From a virus, in the IMG/VR virus record IMGVR_UViG_3300047324_000033, positions 1 through 37,261 of that record: a stretch of DNA of 37,261 nucleotides; one strand, 5' to 3'. Numbering within the stretch: position 1 is the stretch's first letter; each line of letters begins with the position of its first letter. Of this stretch, positions 1-37,261 are shown piece by piece. Below the pieces are notes generated by a model that did no database searches, was not told where the DNA came from, and was given only the letters and a program-made list of their open reading frames with translations. The position numbers were made by a program, and so were the translations under genes.

Positions 1-127
1 ATTGGTTCTTTATTAATTTTAATTTCCAATATTTTCTTTTTATTCATTTGTTTTTTCTTCATCGCTTAACATGTCGTAAATAGCTTGTTTAATTTAATCC
101 TTACCTTGCCTCTGCGTGCCGCGGAAT
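1..127. repeat. Terminal direct repeat (left copy), circle overlap
   Basis: Bases 1-127 are identical to 37135-37261. An exact repeat of this length at the two ends of a contig is what an assembler leaves when it closes a circle. The real unit is therefore 37,134 bases, either circular or circularly permuted. The repeat contains the 5' end of the gene at 36948-37196 and the start of pentamer array A, so both continue across the junction. Confidence 0.95.
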
Positions 128-235
128 GCCGTGCCCGACCTCAGCGAGCCTGACCTCAACTAACCGAACCACACCAGGATTAAATTCACCATGCCTTGCC
201 ACAGCGGACCGCACCACGCCGGACCGCTGCACACC
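96..235 (-). repeat. Degenerate 5-base-period array A (YNNGG on minus strand)
   Basis: Noncoding, GC-rich stretch between the minus genes at 244-474 and 36948-37196 (joined across the circle). On the plus strand CC falls at positions 4 and 0 modulo 5 from 99 to 235. I count CC at 20 of 28 successive sites. Most exceptions keep one C, and the register is not lost even across an AT-rich interruption near 176-188. The three other bases of each unit vary freely, so it is periodic without being a sequence repeat. Read as minus-strand RNA the unit is YNNGG. Confidence 0.85.
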
Positions 236-243
236 GGAGTGTT

Positions 244-474
244 TTAATTAGGATTTACGGGCCAAAGATCTCCTTCTTGAACTGAAATTTTGCCCATAAA
301 TTTACAAATTTGTATTGCAGAGTCAGCCTCAGGTAAATATTTAATTGCTGCTTTCACAGCTTCCGGGTAATCATAAATATAACCACTTGTTTTGCTTTCA
401 TAATTTACCAAAACATGTTGTGTTAATTCATTTTTTTTGTTTATATACGTAGCTACATAATATCCTTTATTCAT
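244..474 (-). CDS. Small unknown phage protein, 76 aa
   Basis: I do not recognise this protein. It is a small soluble-looking chain with beta-rich N-terminal sequence (MNKGYYVATYIN) and an alanine-rich helical middle. ATG at 474 is preceded by an AAGGAAA ribosome site. It follows the 207-aa gene at 488-1111 by 13 bases and is probably cotranscribed with it. The pair is bounded by pentamer array B upstream and array A downstream, so its mRNA would carry G-rich periodic sequence at both ends. Confidence 0.7.
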   Translation of the reverse strand: MNKGYYVATYINKKNELTQHVLVNYESKTSGYIYDYPEAVKAAIKYLPEADSAIQICKFMGKISVQEGDLWPVNPN

Positions 475-487
475 TATATTTCCTTTT

Positions 488-1111
488 TTAGTTACTAATT
501 ACTTGAAAGTTAACAATTTGAAAACGGCCGTAAGTGGGCCTAAAATCAGCAAGCCCAACAAGTCTTCCTGCTGTTGCTATGCTGTCGTTTAAATCTTGAG
601 GATTAACATATTCCGGTAGATTTACCATAATTTGAAACTCAGCTTCCCAGCCTGCTCGTAAAGCAGGCCTTGTGCGGTTAATGCCGCTTCTTTGCACAAC
701 AACCCTTCTTTTGTCTTCATAGTCCCATTCTTTTTTACCGACTGATGATAGAGGTGTTAAACAAACAAGAGCTGCTTTGTAAAGATCCATAGCACTTTTA
801 CGTGGTGAACGGGGATCTTGTTTAAATTTGGCAGCTGCAATAATCGACATTCTTAAATATTCACCTGGAATGCAAATAAATCCTTCTTCATTTCTATAGA
901 CAAATGATTCAATATTATCGGTTTTTTTACCTTTAGATCCCTTTGCAAGAGCGCTTTTCGTTTCAACTTCTTCACAATTCCACCGGTGAAACAATAAATC
1001 ACTGCAACCTTTTATTTTTACATTCACTACATAAGGTAACGATAACTCTATTGTTTCCTGTGATGCGTTTGTCGTTTGATTTTCAACGACTTCTTTTTTT
1101 AGTTTAACCAT
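488..1111 (-). CDS. Conserved-looking phage protein of unknown function, 207 aa
   Basis: ATG at 1111 has an AGGAAAG ribosome site. The chain starts with a polar tail (about 25 residues), then a beta strand pattern (YVVNVKIKG) and a LLFHRW motif. The C-terminal third carries GWEAEFQIMV and a GRLVGLADFRPTYGRF motif. The glycine- and arginine-rich end after a beta strand loosely recalls RAMP/Cas7-type RRM folds, but this is a faint resemblance and I assign no function. The gene is the first after the portal terminator, and its leader holds array B. A nucleic-acid-binding role is possible but unproven. Confidence 0.75.
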   Translation of the reverse strand: MVKLKKEVVENQTTNASQETIELSLPYVVNVKIKGCSDLLFHRWNCEEVETKSALAKGSKGKKTDNIESFVYRNEEGFICIPGEYLRMSIIAAAKFKQDPRSPRKSAMDLYKAALVCLTPLSSVGKKEWDYEDKRRVVVQRSGINRTRPALRAGWEAEFQIMVNLPEYVNPQDLNDSIATAGRLVGLADFRPTYGRFQIVNFQVISN

Positions 1112-1145: not shown

Positions 1146-1339
1146 AACCATACCTAACAGGACCAAACCGAGCCACACCGAGCCACACCCAACCTACCCC
1201 TGACGCGCGTTGCCAAGCACTACCCCACCAATCCAAACCAAACCAAACCCCAGCTTGCCCTGCCACACACTACCTCACCAATCCAGACCCTGCCTAACCC
1301 TGCCGTGCCTCATCAAGGCTCGCCTTGCCAAGTTTTACC
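1146..1339 (-). repeat. Degenerate 5-base-period array B (YNNGG on minus strand)
   Basis: Together with array C and the terminator this fills the gene-free stretch 1112-1527. On the plus strand CC sits at positions 3 and 4 modulo 5 from 1148 to 1339. I count CC at 30 of 39 consecutive sites with no slip. Units seen on the minus strand include TGTGG, CTCGG, TTTGG, CAAGG and TGAGG. The array lies in the leader of the minus gene at 488-1111, downstream of the portal terminator. An AT-rich gap at 1340-1388 may hold a weak minus-strand promoter. No open frame of useful length runs through it, and a 5-base period is incompatible with a simple codon repeat. Confidence 0.9.
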
Positions 1340-1388
1340 GTGGAATGATATGACATCTATATTAAGCAAAATGTAAATAAATGGAAAC

Positions 1389-1420
1389 AAAAAAAAGAGG
1401 TAAGTTAAAAACTTACCTCT
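1389..1420 (-). terminator. Rho-independent terminator after the portal gene
   Basis: On the minus strand an 11-bp stem (1410-1420 with 1396-1406, AGAGGTAAGTT type) closes a 3-base loop and is followed by eight U (A run 1389-1396). It lies about 110 bases past the portal stop, with array C between. It separates the packaging genes from the unknown genes at 488-1111. Confidence 0.9.
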
Positions 1421-1480
1421 ACCTCGCCTTTCCTTACCTCGGCAGACAATGCCACGCCTCAGCATGCCTTGTCTTGCCAT
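1421..1480 (-). repeat. Degenerate 5-base-period array C (short)
   Basis: Plus-strand CC at positions 2 and 3 modulo 5 from 1422 to 1478, at 8 of 12 sites by hand count. It lies in the 3' untranslated region of the portal transcript, directly before the terminator stem. It is shorter and less regular than arrays A, B and D, but the G-rich strand is again the transcribed one. Confidence 0.65.
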
Positions 1481-1527
1481 GCTTTAATCTAACCTAAACA
1501 ATACATCCACACTTTAAACGAGAGTAA

Positions 1528-3660
1528 CTATACCAATTGCTCTTCTTGTTGTAAAGATTGCTGAGATGGGGTTGACATCATGAGTTTTTGGACAAATTCT
1601 TTGCTAGCTTCATTTCTTTCCACTTGAGCTCTTGAAGATTTTTCCAACTCTTGCTCGTCATAAGATATGGAATCCAAATTGTTTGCCTGTAGATATGTTT
1701 CTAACTCGCCAAACTTTTGAATTGTCTCTAACAACTTAGCTAAAGCTTCTGCTTTTTCTTTATTTGCCATTGCATGGTTTTTAGAGATCATGCTCATACG
1801 TTCTTCGAATAAGCCAACGTTAGATTCTGACCTAGAATCTCTTTCACGAGCTTGTGACAATTGGTTATGAATTTTAGCCATAAGCTCTTTAATTTTCATT
1901 TCTTCAATTGTATGCTTAATGTTCATCTCTTCAGACTGAGCAGCTTGCATTTGTTGTTCTTGCTGCTGGAGATATGGGATGATTTCACCTTTGCCGGTGA
2001 TGTTGAGTTTAGGAATAATCATTGATGGCGAGAACACTTCGCGTCCAAACATCTGATTCATGTCCATCATCTGTTGAGCTTGTAAGTTTTGTTGGGTTGG
2101 TGTGAGATCTGATTCCTCAACCAAAACATTAAACTTAGCAAAAACTTTAGAATAAAAATGTGCTGTTGGTTCTTCGCCTATGTAAAGAGCTACTTTTTCT
2201 GCATTCCAGTTGTTGAGAACAATCTGAAGAAGTCTTTCGCCTAAAAGCTTATCTGAAAAATCCCATTGGTCAAAATACTTCTGGAAAACCATAAGATTAG
2301 CAGCCTGTTTTAAAAGCACTGTAAGGCTTGAGGTTTGCTTATCTTGCTGGCCTGACCAATTCTCTAGGTTGATTCCTGATGTTGCAAATATGAGGTTCTT
2401 CATTTGTTCTGCAAGGGCAAGATCAGACTCGGGCACTGCTGATGGGATGATCTTCTCAACATCGGTCATTTCATAGCCTTCGTTGATGATTACATCCCAG
2501 CCTTGACCTGCTTTTTTGAGATTGTCTTCATTGGCTACAGCACCAACTTTACGTTTCCAACCGGCATTAATGGTTGCAGCTGCGATATCATTGTTAGTTA
2601 TGATTTTATAGTTCATGAGGAACTGGGGATCTCTCATAGTGCGAATAAGCCCACGCACACGTAGGTCATAATAGTTTATATGCGGTTCATAGTTCCAATA
2701 ATAGGGGATAAAGGGGCAGCCATCAAAACCAAGGGGATTGTCACCTTGGTACATAAGTTGATCGTTGAGTACAACAGCTAGTTTCCAGCAAGGAACATCA
2801 ACGGTCACTTCTTCCATGTCGGGAATGTTATAGAGAATTTGCTCTAGATTATCATCACCGCCAGCATAATCAAAAAACTGATTACGAGTCCTACTATACA
2901 AACGTTTTTTCTTACGCTTCCATTTGTACCAGACATAGCTAAGCACCATAAGATCGTTTCTCGCCATATTATAATTTTCAGGTAAAAAATAAAACGATCC
3001 AAAACGTTGCGGTGTGCCTGCCATTGGTTTGATTTGATCTATTTTATCAGGGAATCTGTCTTCTGCTTCTTTCTTAGATATGTACTCTTGGCACCACACG
3101 AACTGTGCATCGGACATATCGGGAGATCTAAAGTAGGGATCAACGAGGAATGCATTGTATTCCCATATTTTTACTTTTAGCTCGCCTTGAGCTTGATCAT
3201 CACCTGAAAAATCAAGATATGGCTGTAAAAGTACCATTCCTGAAATAGCAGCAAGTTCTTTAGCTTTGGATTTCTGTTCGTGAATAGAACCTTTGTTGGC
3301 TGCATGAGTGATTAATTTGGTGTATTGGTCTGTTGTTTGCGGGTCAGCGCCTTCGGTAGGGACATAGTTGAAGTTTTTGCGATGCTGTCTTTCATAACCT
3401 GTTACCATGTTAATTGGTTGTTGCACCAAGTTAAAATAGTACTGCTGATAAGAGGTAGTTGGAGAAAAGTTAAAGTAGCGGTTTACAAACGTGTCTGTTC
3501 CAGCATAGACAAGGGTATCGATATTGGCTTGATTCCAACGCGATTGTTCAATGGGTTGAAACTTAGAGTAAAGGTTATCAAGCCATTGTCTGACGTTACC
3601 TTGATTAGGCTCTAATGCGTTATTCCATGGGGGATAGTAAAATGAGATAAGAGCCTCCAA
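1528..3660 (-). CDS. Portal protein, P22-like, 710 aa
   Basis: The portal is the dodecameric ring at the capsid vertex through which DNA enters and leaves. The length, the tryptophan/tyrosine-rich N-terminal third with MVTGYERQHRKNF near residue 85, and the long helical glutamine-rich C-terminus (about 560-710, with a coiled coil) fit P22-type portals. The neighbouring terminase supports this. The start is odd. The first in-frame candidate is TTG at 3660 with no ribosome site before it. GGAGG lies inside codons 1-3 and points to an ATC codon 5 bases further on. A stop lies two codons upstream of the TTG, so the start must be in this short window. A terminator follows. Confidence 0.88.
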   Translation of the reverse strand: MEALISFYYPPWNNALEPNQGNVRQWLDNLYSKFQPIEQSRWNQANIDTLVYAGTDTFVNRYFNFSPTTSYQQYYFNLVQQPINMVTGYERQHRKNFNYVPTEGADPQTTDQYTKLITHAANKGSIHEQKSKAKELAAISGMVLLQPYLDFSGDDQAQGELKVKIWEYNAFLVDPYFRSPDMSDAQFVWCQEYISKKEAEDRFPDKIDQIKPMAGTPQRFGSFYFLPENYNMARNDLMVLSYVWYKWKRKKKRLYSRTRNQFFDYAGGDDNLEQILYNIPDMEEVTVDVPCWKLAVVLNDQLMYQGDNPLGFDGCPFIPYYWNYEPHINYYDLRVRGLIRTMRDPQFLMNYKIITNNDIAAATINAGWKRKVGAVANEDNLKKAGQGWDVIINEGYEMTDVEKIIPSAVPESDLALAEQMKNLIFATSGINLENWSGQQDKQTSSLTVLLKQAANLMVFQKYFDQWDFSDKLLGERLLQIVLNNWNAEKVALYIGEEPTAHFYSKVFAKFNVLVEESDLTPTQQNLQAQQMMDMNQMFGREVFSPSMIIPKLNITGKGEIIPYLQQQEQQMQAAQSEEMNIKHTIEEMKIKELMAKIHNQLSQARERDSRSESNVGLFEERMSMISKNHAMANKEKAEALAKLLETIQKFGELETYLQANNLDSISYDEQELEKSSRAQVERNEASKEFVQKLMMSTPSQQSLQQEEQLV

Positions 3661-20459: not shown

Positions 20460-20704
20460 CAGGGTGGTTAGCAGAGGTAAGGTCTGCTCGAGCTCTGGCC
20501 TGGTGAGCTGAGGACTGACCTGGCAAGTTCAGGTGAGGTCAGCTGAGGCGTGACCTGGTGGGGTGAGGATTGATCTGGAAAGTTAAGCCAAGATAGGGCG
20601 AGGCGTGATTGGGTTCGGCAGAGTGAGATGTGGTTAGGCAGGACTAGGTGAGCTCAGGTGTGTTTCGGCTCGTTTTGGACCGGAGCGACAAGGTTAGGTA
20701 AGGA
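20460..20704 (+). repeat. Degenerate 5-base-period array D (YNNGG on plus strand)
   Basis: This fills most of the gene-free stretch 20337-20726. From 20497 to 20703 G stands at position 2 modulo 5 at 41 of 42 sites, and GG at 25 of 42 (counted by eye). Before 20497 a one-base phase shift is seen (GG at 20466, 20476, 20481). The first base of the unit is nearly always a pyrimidine. The same YNNGG rule as arrays A-C applies, but on the opposite genomic strand. It is again the strand that would be transcribed, as leader of the gene at 20727. Confidence 0.9.
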
Positions 20705-20726
20705 TTTTTTTACATGGAGGTTTAAC

Positions 20727-20900
20727 ATGGATCGTTTTTTTGAAACTATAATTAACATGACTGTTGGAGCCGGTATTTACCTTTTTGGTGCACACCAAGG
20801 GGAAAAACAAGCTCGCAAAGACATTGAAGTTCAACTGCAACAAGCAGAAATCAATGAGCTAAGAAAACAATTGAATGAATTAAAAAATAGAAAAAATTAA
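20727..20900 (+). CDS. 57-aa membrane-anchored coiled-coil protein
   Basis: ATG at 20727 has a perfect GGAGG 6 bases upstream. Residues 4-22 form a hydrophobic segment (FETIINMTVGAGIYLFGA), then a basic turn and a coiled coil (QLQQAEINELRKQLNELKN). One N-terminal membrane helix with a coiled coil is the layout of inner-membrane spanins and of small phage scaffolds. It stands alone on the plus strand with its own promoter, the array D leader and a terminator, so it is probably controlled separately from the late genes on either side. Confidence 0.75.
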   Translation: MDRFFETIINMTVGAGIYLFGAHQGEKQARKDIEVQLQQAEINELRKQLNELKNRKN

Positions 20901-20910
20901 GTCAAACAAT

Positions 20911-20938
20911 AGCTAAGATTATTTCTTAGCTTTTTTTT
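20911..20938 (+). terminator. Rho-independent terminator of the 57-aa gene
   Basis: AGCTAAGA (20911-20918) pairs with TCTTAGCT (20924-20931), loop of 5, followed by T7 at 20932-20938. It ends the short plus-strand unit that starts near 20457. Confidence 0.85.
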
Positions 20939-21000: not shown

Positions 21001-23028
21001 TTATTGTTCATTTTTAGGTTTTTTCTTTTTAGGTTTTTTTTCTTTAGGTTTTTTCTTTTTAGGTTTTTTTCTTAATTTTTCCCAATAGTCGTATAATGTT
21101 TCTAGCTTATAGTAATTGGGATTTGGTGGCTGACCTTTTGCAGCTTTTTTGTATTTAGGATCTTTCAAGATTTCTTTGTGAAAAGCAGCCCCTAAAGATC
21201 GTCTATCTTCTTGTGACCAAGCGCCATAAATATTTTGTCCCTTGGTTATCGGTATACCCATTTTGTTAGCTATACGATAAACTTTATCAGGATCAACATC
21301 GTAATATTTATAAGTTGAGCCGTCGTGAAATTGGACATACATTTCAGCATCTTTAGGGTTATATAGAAATAAAACTATATTTGAAGATTTATCTACTTCC
21401 GGTATGTTTAAGATGTTTTGAACAGCTTTTATAATTTCTTTATCAGTTTTTACATAATCATCTTTACGATAACTTTTTTGCTTTCCATTAACATCGGCAA
21501 TTATCCCTTCTTTACCTTCAAATTCAATCTCTCCTGGGCCATTAGGAGTAATTACTACATCTTTTATTTCTTCAATAGGTATTGGTTTAGGCGCTGATTT
21601 TTGGGCAGCCTCTTGGCTTTCTTTTTCTTCTTTTTCTATAACGCGTTCAATTTCATTTGAACTCTGTTCTTTTAAAGCTACTTGTCCAATAGGTGTGCTT
21701 ATAAAATCAACATTTGGATATATTTTTTGCAACAACCTAACCCAATCTTCATTATCCAAAACACCGATAGGATTTAAAGTATTTTCAGGTGCATAATTAT
21801 TTGTAATTTCACGTTTAAAATCTTTATCGTTTAAATCCAACAAATCCAACATGTTTTGCGGAACATCCGATTCGTTAAACTCATTTGTTTTCTTAGCTTT
21901 TGTTAAAAAGATTTTTACATCTTTAACAAGCTTTTGCATGTCTTTTGTGTCAGAAGAACTTAAATCAAGAATTTTGGTTTTGTTGTTTGATTTTGTTTTT
22001 TGCAGCTTGTTTTGGTTTTTGGAAACTTCAGTTGGCAAAGCCGTTTCTTTCTTTAACAAATCATTAAAATCATTGTTTTGGTTGTTTTCTTTTACAGCTC
22101 CAGCAGTTCTTTGCGGCTCTGTATGCAACTGTTCTTGCCTTCCATAACCTCTTTCAAACCTTTCAATTTCTTCATCAATGAGAGATTGTTTTCTTTTTTC
22201 TTCAGCTTGTTTAGCCTGCACTTGCTGTTGGTGTTGCTGGTATTGTTGTAACGCTTGATCATGGCCTTGTTGAGCTTGTTGCTGATGCACAACAACCCCA
22301 TAATCCTGGATAGCTTGTTCAAAGCCCCCGGGAGCTCTATCTAAAACAGCTAACTTGTTTTTTGGTAGAGTTTGTCTTAAGAGCTGCATTACAGCAGCAG
22401 GAGCGAGCCCCGATGTAATTGCAGATGCAACCTGTTTACCAATACCGATATTTTCAATGATAGCTACGTTTTGCTCAGGGTCATGCTCATAAGGCGGGAT
22501 GATTGGTGTATTAGGTGTGCCTAACGCATTAGGAGCCCCTCCTTGAGGAGATCTAGGCCTTGGACCACCCTGTGTAGGTGCAGGGCCTTGCGGTGGTTGC
22601 TGGGGATTGTAAGGCAATTGTTTTTGAGCAGCTCCCGGCAACTGTGGCGGCGCCCCTTTTTGCCTTTGCGGTGAAGCCGGTAATATTTCACTAGGATAGA
22701 TAGCTCTATTTCTGTTTTGATAGTAATACAATCCTGCAGCAATGGCTCCTGCAGTTCCAACGGCTCCTATCAATCCTGTTTTTTGATTAAGATCTTTAGA
22801 TTTTTCACTTTTTCTTCTTTTTTCAACCTCAGTCAAATAACCCGTAAACTCTTGTTTAGGAGGTTTATTGGGATCGATAAATTTCTTAAGCACAGTATCA
22901 GCGGTATATCCAATAAGCAAAGCTTGATCTATCCGTTTTGCATATTGAGGATATTGACGAGCTATTTGATTTAAGATAGCTCTAGATGAATATCCGCTAG
23001 CTAATGCTTGTAAAATTTGAGATGCCAT
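21001..23028 (-). CDS. Probable ejection/internal virion protein with KTSC-like domain, 675 aa
   Basis: Third of three large helical proteins after the tail genes, the usual place for DNA ejection proteins. The N-terminus has a helical repeat (ASGYSSRAILNQIARQYPQY) and a short hydrophobic segment (GLIGAVGTAGAIAAGLYYY), then Pro/Gln-rich disorder. Near residue 490 is a small beta unit (TPNGPGEIEFEGKEGI), then a KTSC-like domain (YVQFHDGSTYKYYDVDPDKVY). The protein ends in a Lys/Pro tail. No lytic transglycosylase motif was found. It abuts the preceding gene. Confidence 0.65.
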   Translation of the reverse strand: MASQILQALASGYSSRAILNQIARQYPQYAKRIDQALLIGYTADTVLKKFIDPNKPPKQEFTGYLTEVEKRRKSEKSKDLNQKTGLIGAVGTAGAIAAGLYYYQNRNRAIYPSEILPASPQRQKGAPPQLPGAAQKQLPYNPQQPPQGPAPTQGGPRPRSPQGGAPNALGTPNTPIIPPYEHDPEQNVAIIENIGIGKQVASAITSGLAPAAVMQLLRQTLPKNKLAVLDRAPGGFEQAIQDYGVVVHQQQAQQGHDQALQQYQQHQQQVQAKQAEEKRKQSLIDEEIERFERGYGRQEQLHTEPQRTAGAVKENNQNNDFNDLLKKETALPTEVSKNQNKLQKTKSNNKTKILDLSSSDTKDMQKLVKDVKIFLTKAKKTNEFNESDVPQNMLDLLDLNDKDFKREITNNYAPENTLNPIGVLDNEDWVRLLQKIYPNVDFISTPIGQVALKEQSSNEIERVIEKEEKESQEAAQKSAPKPIPIEEIKDVVITPNGPGEIEFEGKEGIIADVNGKQKSYRKDDYVKTDKEIIKAVQNILNIPEVDKSSNIVLFLYNPKDAEMYVQFHDGSTYKYYDVDPDKVYRIANKMGIPITKGQNIYGAWSQEDRRSLGAAFHKEILKDPKYKKAAKGQPPNPNYYKLETLYDYWEKLRKKPKKKKPKEKKPKKKKPKNEQ
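21011..21070 (-). repeat. Short tandem repeat coding the Lys/Pro tail
   Basis: Four imperfect copies of a unit of about 15 bases (TTTTTAGGTTTTTTC on the plus strand) code for KKPKKKKP-type tail residues. Such repeats gain and lose copies easily, so tail length is probably variable between relatives. Confidence 0.7.
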
Positions 23029-36955: not shown

Positions 36956-37196
36956 TTTTTAACCATTTGCCCCATCGATTTAAATATACAATTGTTTCAT
37001 ATGTTTGATCAAGTCCTAGTTCTTTGCATTTGTCTGCGTCTTTAATGATTGCTTCATGTTCTTTTCTGCCATTTACATTGATGTATTGAACAGGGATTTG
37101 TTCAGGCAATAGATGTTCGCCATTTTCCAATGATATTGGTTCTTTATTAATTTTAATTTCCAATATTTTCTTTTTATTCATTTGTTTTTTCTTCAT
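36948..37196 (-). CDS. Small unknown protein, 82 aa, crossing the repeat
   Basis: The start (ATG at 37196, or a second Met at 37181) lies inside the terminal repeat, so the same bases also occur at 1-62. The basic N-terminus and a beta-helix body (ILEIKINKEPISLENGEHLL) are visible. No family is recognised. On the circle it follows array A and is read with the gene at 36584. Confidence 0.65.
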   Translation of the reverse strand: MKKKQMNKKKILEIKINKEPISLENGEHLLPEQIPVQYINVNGRKEHEAIIKDADKCKELGLDQTYETIVYLNRWGKWLKNE

Positions 37197-37261
37197 CGCT
37201 TAACATGTCGTAAATAGCTTGTTTAATTTAATCCTTACCTTGCCTCTGCGTGCCGCGGAAT
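37135..37261. repeat. Terminal direct repeat (right copy)
   Basis: Exact copy of bases 1-127. See the left copy. It should be counted once when the circle is closed. Confidence 0.95.

Follow-up and report, generated by a model that had tools for sequence, protein, structure and literature searches.

Viral Interference Programmable Repeat (VIPR) is a phage-encoded system reported in a preprint of April–June 2026 (PMC13142463), which describes it as follows. VIPR occurs mostly in phages or proviruses and combines a RAMP protein, Vipr, with vrRNAs that each consist of 9–16 YNNGG repeats and a 3′ tail. The product of the vipr gene is a ~20-kDa RAMP homologue encoded adjacent to the arrays, long intergenic stretches flank vipr, and an accessory gene, vap, is among the features of the system. 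In the vrRNA, GGY is kept and NN is hypervariable, and the NN dinucleotides base-pair with DNA, skipping one base from each dinucleotide to the next. The vrRNAs are expressed and bind Vipr, and their NN bases match the DNA of other mobile elements. The vrRNAs of Escherichia phage SUSP1 are functional, and changing the NN bases alone while retaining GG abolishes function. Staggered arrays with overlapping vrRNAs are also mentioned, and VIPR is divided into seven types (PMC13142463).

The DNA analysed here (the window) is a stretch of 37,261 nucleotides that makes up IMG/VR virus record IMGVR_UViG_3300047324_000033, and the initial annotation, made from sequence alone, had singled out a five-base periodicity at positions 1146–1339. 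We conclude that this array and three further ones are almost certainly genes for the vrRNAs of a VIPR system carried by the phage, with the open reading frame (ORF) at 488–1111 encoding its Vipr protein. This kind of system has already been described, and the phage in the window is an additional, divergent example whose clade is distant from that in which the laboratory work was done.

Of the 40 CC dinucleotides in the segment 1146–1339, 30 share a single phase of 5 that offers 39 sites, the 30 of 39 agreeing with the initial annotation, and there are no phase slips through position 1340. Dinucleotide shuffles of the same segment gave a mean of 10.7 in-phase CC and a maximum of 17, and none of 2000 reached 30. 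When periods from 3 to 12 were compared in this segment, the signal was found at 5 (and its multiple 10) alone. The comparison with shuffled controls that the initial annotation had named as a check also holds against shuffles of the whole window: the array scores 46.2, and 200 such dinucleotide shuffles gave at most 7.4. The window scan found four arrays in all, three with RNA on the minus strand (97–240, 1146–1340 and 1402–1495) and one on the plus strand (20464–20706). In-phase counts were 20 of 21 CC for 97–240, 8 of 10 CC for 1402–1495 and, on the opposite strand, 26 of 35 GG for 20460–20710, and these were reached in 0 of 2000 shuffles in each case. The single array first described is therefore real, but the three others and the guide content of the variable bases had been missed. 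The features of the locus are as follows.

97..240, minus strand: array C, with tracts C1 (~193–238, 10 units) and C2 (~98–178, 16 units) and TGAATTTAAT between them
244..474, minus strand: 76-aa ORF directly 3′ of vipr; possible vap (accessory) gene by position
488..1111, minus strand: vipr, encoding the 207-aa Vipr protein of the phrog_4652 family with a predicted Cas7-type RAMP fold, between arrays B and C
1146..1340, minus strand: array B, ~38–39 YNNGG units in a single phase, immediately 5′ of the vipr start codon
1396..1420, minus strand: 11-bp hairpin with a T run behind it where array A ends on its 3′ side; resembles an intrinsic terminator and is a possible tail or terminator
1402..1495, minus strand: array A, ~12–13 YNNGG units, the size of a single vrRNA
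1527..1555, minus strand: promoter-like site with an extended −10 (10/12) just 5′ of array A; a consensus match, not commoner than in shuffles
20464..20706, plus strand: array D, at least 42 YNNGG units with one +1 phase change near 20490, adjoining the ribosome-binding site of a 57-aa ORF
20727..20900, plus strand: 57-aa ORF 3′ of array D; a hairpin resembling a terminator lies behind the ORF at 20911–20931

The base preceding CC is a purine and the remaining two bases are highly variable, so that the unit on the RNA strand reads Y-NN-GG, with a pyrimidine in 91% of units, two highly variable bases, the first G in 91% and the second G in 74%. The minus-strand RNA that had been proposed for 1146–1339 agrees with the predicted strand of vipr. 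Across the four arrays the entropy of the NN positions is 1.3–2.0 bits, and 25–40% of units lack a full GG. When the SUSP1 genome was read with the same array finder, we recovered one array 5′ and three arrays 3′ of vipr, as published, and the four SUSP1 vrRNAs have GG in 54–86% of units (60–76% in the window arrays) and Y in 92–94% (88–93% in the window arrays). By analogy, the variable NN bases would be the information, or guide, content of the arrays.

By size, array A (12–13 units plus the hairpin/terminator), C1 (10) and C2 (16) fall within the 9–16 units of a vrRNA, and the NN series of array A reads AT AA AA AT GA GT AT CT GA AA AA GA. From the promoter-like site to the hairpin and T run, array A looks in sequence like a stand-alone transcript of ~125 nt. 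Arrays B (39) and D (at least 42) exceed 9–16 units and show no clear internal tail, and B could accommodate two or three vrRNAs or a staggered set. None of the window arrays has an identified tail conserved with SUSP1. A closing stem around the tracts was considered and rejected: C2 does lie between the arms of a 10-bp inverted repeat, yet across five tracts the stems are no better than those of mismatched pairs. Arrays B and D end immediately before the ribosome-binding sites of vipr and the 57-aa ORF, respectively, and arrays placed in 5′ leaders in this way may let free Vipr influence the downstream gene. Neither small ORF was matched, with zero homologues of the 76-aa ORF in Pfam, PHROGs and the collected loci and none of the 57-aa ORF among the collected loci. 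A period-15 T-rich tandem repeat also lies in this part of the window (21011–21080), at the 3′ end of a 675-aa KTSC-domain gene.

Array D lies ~16–19 kb from vipr on the circular map and on the opposite strand. A separate array in the leader of the 57-aa gene would mean that guides come from several transcription units and are supplied in trans, and we tentatively suggest that this clade may use long continuous arrays together with a physically separate one, although we hold this general reading to be rather doubtful. Neither the long uninterrupted arrays nor the remote array D could be matched to a feature in the text of the VIPR paper (PMC13142463).

The identity of the protein encoded at 488–1111 rests on several comparisons. 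BLASTP against SUSP1 Vipr gave E=3e-11 with 25% identity, and both proteins match phrog_4652; this PHROG, listed without a function, is now identified as the SUSP1 Vipr family. With the window protein at its head, a 61-sequence profile found PDB entry 36pp, 'SUSP1 Vipr protein', with E=1.2e-39. The AlphaFold2 model of the window protein has a pLDDT of 90.7, and all 50 of the 50 PDB matches listed for it are RAMP-type CRISPR effector subunits, mostly of type III-A Csm and type VII. The reading frame is intact and the near-invariant residues of the family are present. The window Vipr falls in a 12-member clade separate from SUSP1 with support of 100/98. Elsewhere, locus L323 (3650–3930) has a Vipr 67% identical to that of the window adjoining three short YNNGG tracts, at least two of which are apparently closed by A/T-rich inverted repeats.

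The association of array and vipr was also examined in other genomes, beginning with the rhythm-only pattern HRCCN x7, which gave at least 120 matches in IMG/VR. Among the matches listed, 107 loci have arrays that are diverse and non-repetitive and that keep to a single strand at nearly every locus, so the search of other phages that the initial annotation had suggested does recover YNNGG arrays. In many of these arrays, a 4-nt unit or a short conserved linker separates one block from the next. Among the same matches, phrog_4652 was found in 29 of 30 tested contigs picked by array pattern alone, compared with 0 of 14 control genomes, which is independent support for the view that such systems can be found by the array pattern alone. 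Among the matches listed, the sequence retrieved around the array includes a Vipr-like ORF at 83 of the 107 loci (median gap of 38 nt), and in 81 of these 83 the ORF is on the array-RNA strand. The profile behind the count of 83 was partly trained on array-adjacent ORFs and phrog_4652 is an external family, which makes the phrog_4652 test the cleaner of the two. The family was found in only 5 of 50 phages related by portal protein, and among 32 long portal-relative contigs arrays occur only in the two Vipr-positive ones. In the four other Vipr-positive phages available in long form the arrays adjoin vipr, except in G057, where arrays lie near both contig ends and vipr at one end.

Several of these loci have features of their own. 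A portal relative (L409/L410, IMG/VR contig 3300027737_000005) has two phrog_4652 (vipr) loci, at ~21.9 and ~34.4 kb, with a weak array beside each. At L083 (638–1198) there are five vrRNA-like tracts with a highly conserved ~50-nt linker between them (GGGCCTTATTGC..GGCGG..CCGCCTTATGACGTGCAAT), which is likely a tail/leader. In L084, L086, L095 and L193 a single 4-nt unit interrupts the array every 45–75 nt, which suggests a boundary between successive guides. L087 (IMG/VR contig 3300031229_000079) has a 41-unit array on a 35-kb contig that has no phrog_4652 match, and is either an orphan array or the partner of a different Vipr type. Strict 12-unit matches in bacterial and archaeal genomes were mostly ordinary simple or coding repeats and were rejected as VIPR. 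Four diverse 12-unit loci with a Vipr-like ORF are in MAGs labelled Fibrobacteres, Patescibacteria, Alphaproteobacteria and Thermoplasmata, and Vipr-like ORFs adjoin YNNGG arrays in the archaeal/bacterial MAG contigs L309 (Thermoplasmata archaeon), L222 (Patescibacteria), L216 and L293.

The window is a phage genome with a P22-type portal and an end repeat. The repeat is exact over 127 bp (1–127 = 37135–37261), and we take it to be the overlap left by assembling a phage genome of 37134 bp that is circular or permuted; array C therefore spans the point at which the assembly was cut, and the circular form of the genome is complete. The gap from the portal gene to an 86-aa gene is mostly less than ~110 nt in 77 relatives but measures 2217 nt in the window and, in L082, 1257 nt, and each of these two enlarged gaps contains a vipr gene. 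The best reading is that the VIPR locus entered the space between these two genes as cargo, which gives a further instance of VIPR as an inserted module beside a phage portal gene. A few other relatives have gaps of 0.25–4.7 kb without an array, so the site seems to accept other cargo too. One of them, L024, has a 4.7-kb insert without array or Vipr at this spot, which is a possible cargo hot spot.

If the locus works as the account of VIPR and SUSP1 would lead us to expect (PMC13142463), the arrays would be transcribed and then cut or terminated into RNAs of 9–16 units, and Vipr subunits in a row would coat the array RNA with one contact per GGY. The NN dinucleotides would then read target DNA as NNxNNxNN, with one base skipped, and the Vipr–RNA complex would block transcription of a competing phage or satellite. 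We searched 2.7 Mb of collected loci and 1.35 Mb of related phages for natural targets of guides A–D with 0–3 skip bases, and none was found above shuffled guides; the 1-nt skip rule did no better than other skips in these searches. Five exact guide-core patterns searched in IMG/VR with flank extension likewise gave nothing above chance. The C2 core, which read as codons gives the helix-turn-helix-like [ED][HQ]S[ED]RT[IM]A, had 10 exact IMG/VR matches without extension, and we base no claim on it. The empty searches do not weigh heavily against function, as the collections may lack the targeted genomes and near relatives of the window.

It is scarcely conceivable that the arrays are a decayed simple tandem repeat or coding sequence. 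Array B does contain a mild internal duplication (CACTACC[C/T]CACCAATCCA[A/G]ACC x2, 50 nt apart), but 29 of its 39 pentamers are distinct, which rules out an ordinary tandem repeat, and the initial annotation's view that spacing is selected, with no slipped repeat involved, holds. Its exclusion of a codon effect is borne out by the lack of any ORF of at least 60 aa overlapping array A, B or C, and array D stops upstream of the ATG at 20727. CC/GG positions are kept and flanking bases are not across many unrelated phages, which also speaks against decay. CRISPR repeats had been dismissed as well, and none was found beside the RAMP gene in tandem-repeat and Rfam scans of the window, where the Rfam scan gave zero matches. 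The initial annotation had also offered a two-tetrad G-quadruplex run, selected as a structure in the transcript. GG every 5 nt fits the G2N3 motif, but this idea does not account for the pyrimidine after GG or the strict 5-nt phase over 39 units, nor, among the matches listed, for the strand agreement with vipr (81/83) and the linkage to a RAMP gene (29/30), and we consider it highly improbable. TRAP, the trp RNA-binding attenuation protein, binds NAG triplets spaced ~5 nt apart along RNA, and this spacing was the basis for proposing a ring or filament protein that reads every fifth step. The stepwise reading comes close to the published multi-subunit mechanism; the TRAP-like part falls, because the neighbouring gene encodes a protein with the predicted fold of a Cas7-type RAMP, homologous to SUSP1 Vipr, and a binding array for a TRAP-like ring or another host RNA- or DNA-binding protein is hardly to be expected. 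Neither TRAP nor a G-quadruplex is needed.

A more serious alternative, which we nevertheless regard as unlikely, is a vestigial or repurposed VIPR in which Vipr still binds the arrays but the guides have decayed and now mainly regulate vipr (array B) or the 57-aa gene (array D). The 25–40% of imperfect units, the empty target searches and the position of B and D immediately 5′ of ribosome-binding sites would all fit. Against it, the window Vipr has kept its frame and the near-invariant family residues, and the working vrRNAs of SUSP1 have a similar share of imperfect units (PMC13142463). A functional VIPR system is therefore the reading that we prefer.

Compared with the SUSP1 system (KT454805; vipr = ALH47069.1), the window has YNNGG arrays that flank vipr on the same strand, the same unit profile including imperfect units, and a homologous Vipr (phrog_4652) with a RAMP fold. 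It differs in that the two Vipr proteins are 25% identical and fall in separate clades, the window arrays are longer and one sits at a distance on the opposite strand, a SUSP1-like tail is not recognised, and the 76-aa ORF has no homologue found. In TIGR-Tas systems, phages encode guide RNAs in tandem, which direct a Nop-domain protein in binding DNA; the window shares tandem phage guide RNAs with them, but the protein and the repeat layout are different. TRAP sites resemble the window arrays in having triplets ~5 nt apart, but the window triplet is GGY instead of NAG, the linked protein is another one, and the variable bases are informative. The class 1 CRISPR RAMP subunits (Csm3/Cas7 of types III and VII) are like Vipr in predicted fold and, we infer, in their oligomeric RNA-guided logic, whereas the window has no CRISPR repeats or cas genes seen, a 5-nt rhythm and a non-contiguous guide. 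What began as an anonymous sequence oddity is thereby tied to a just-described, CRISPR-related RNA system that reads DNA.
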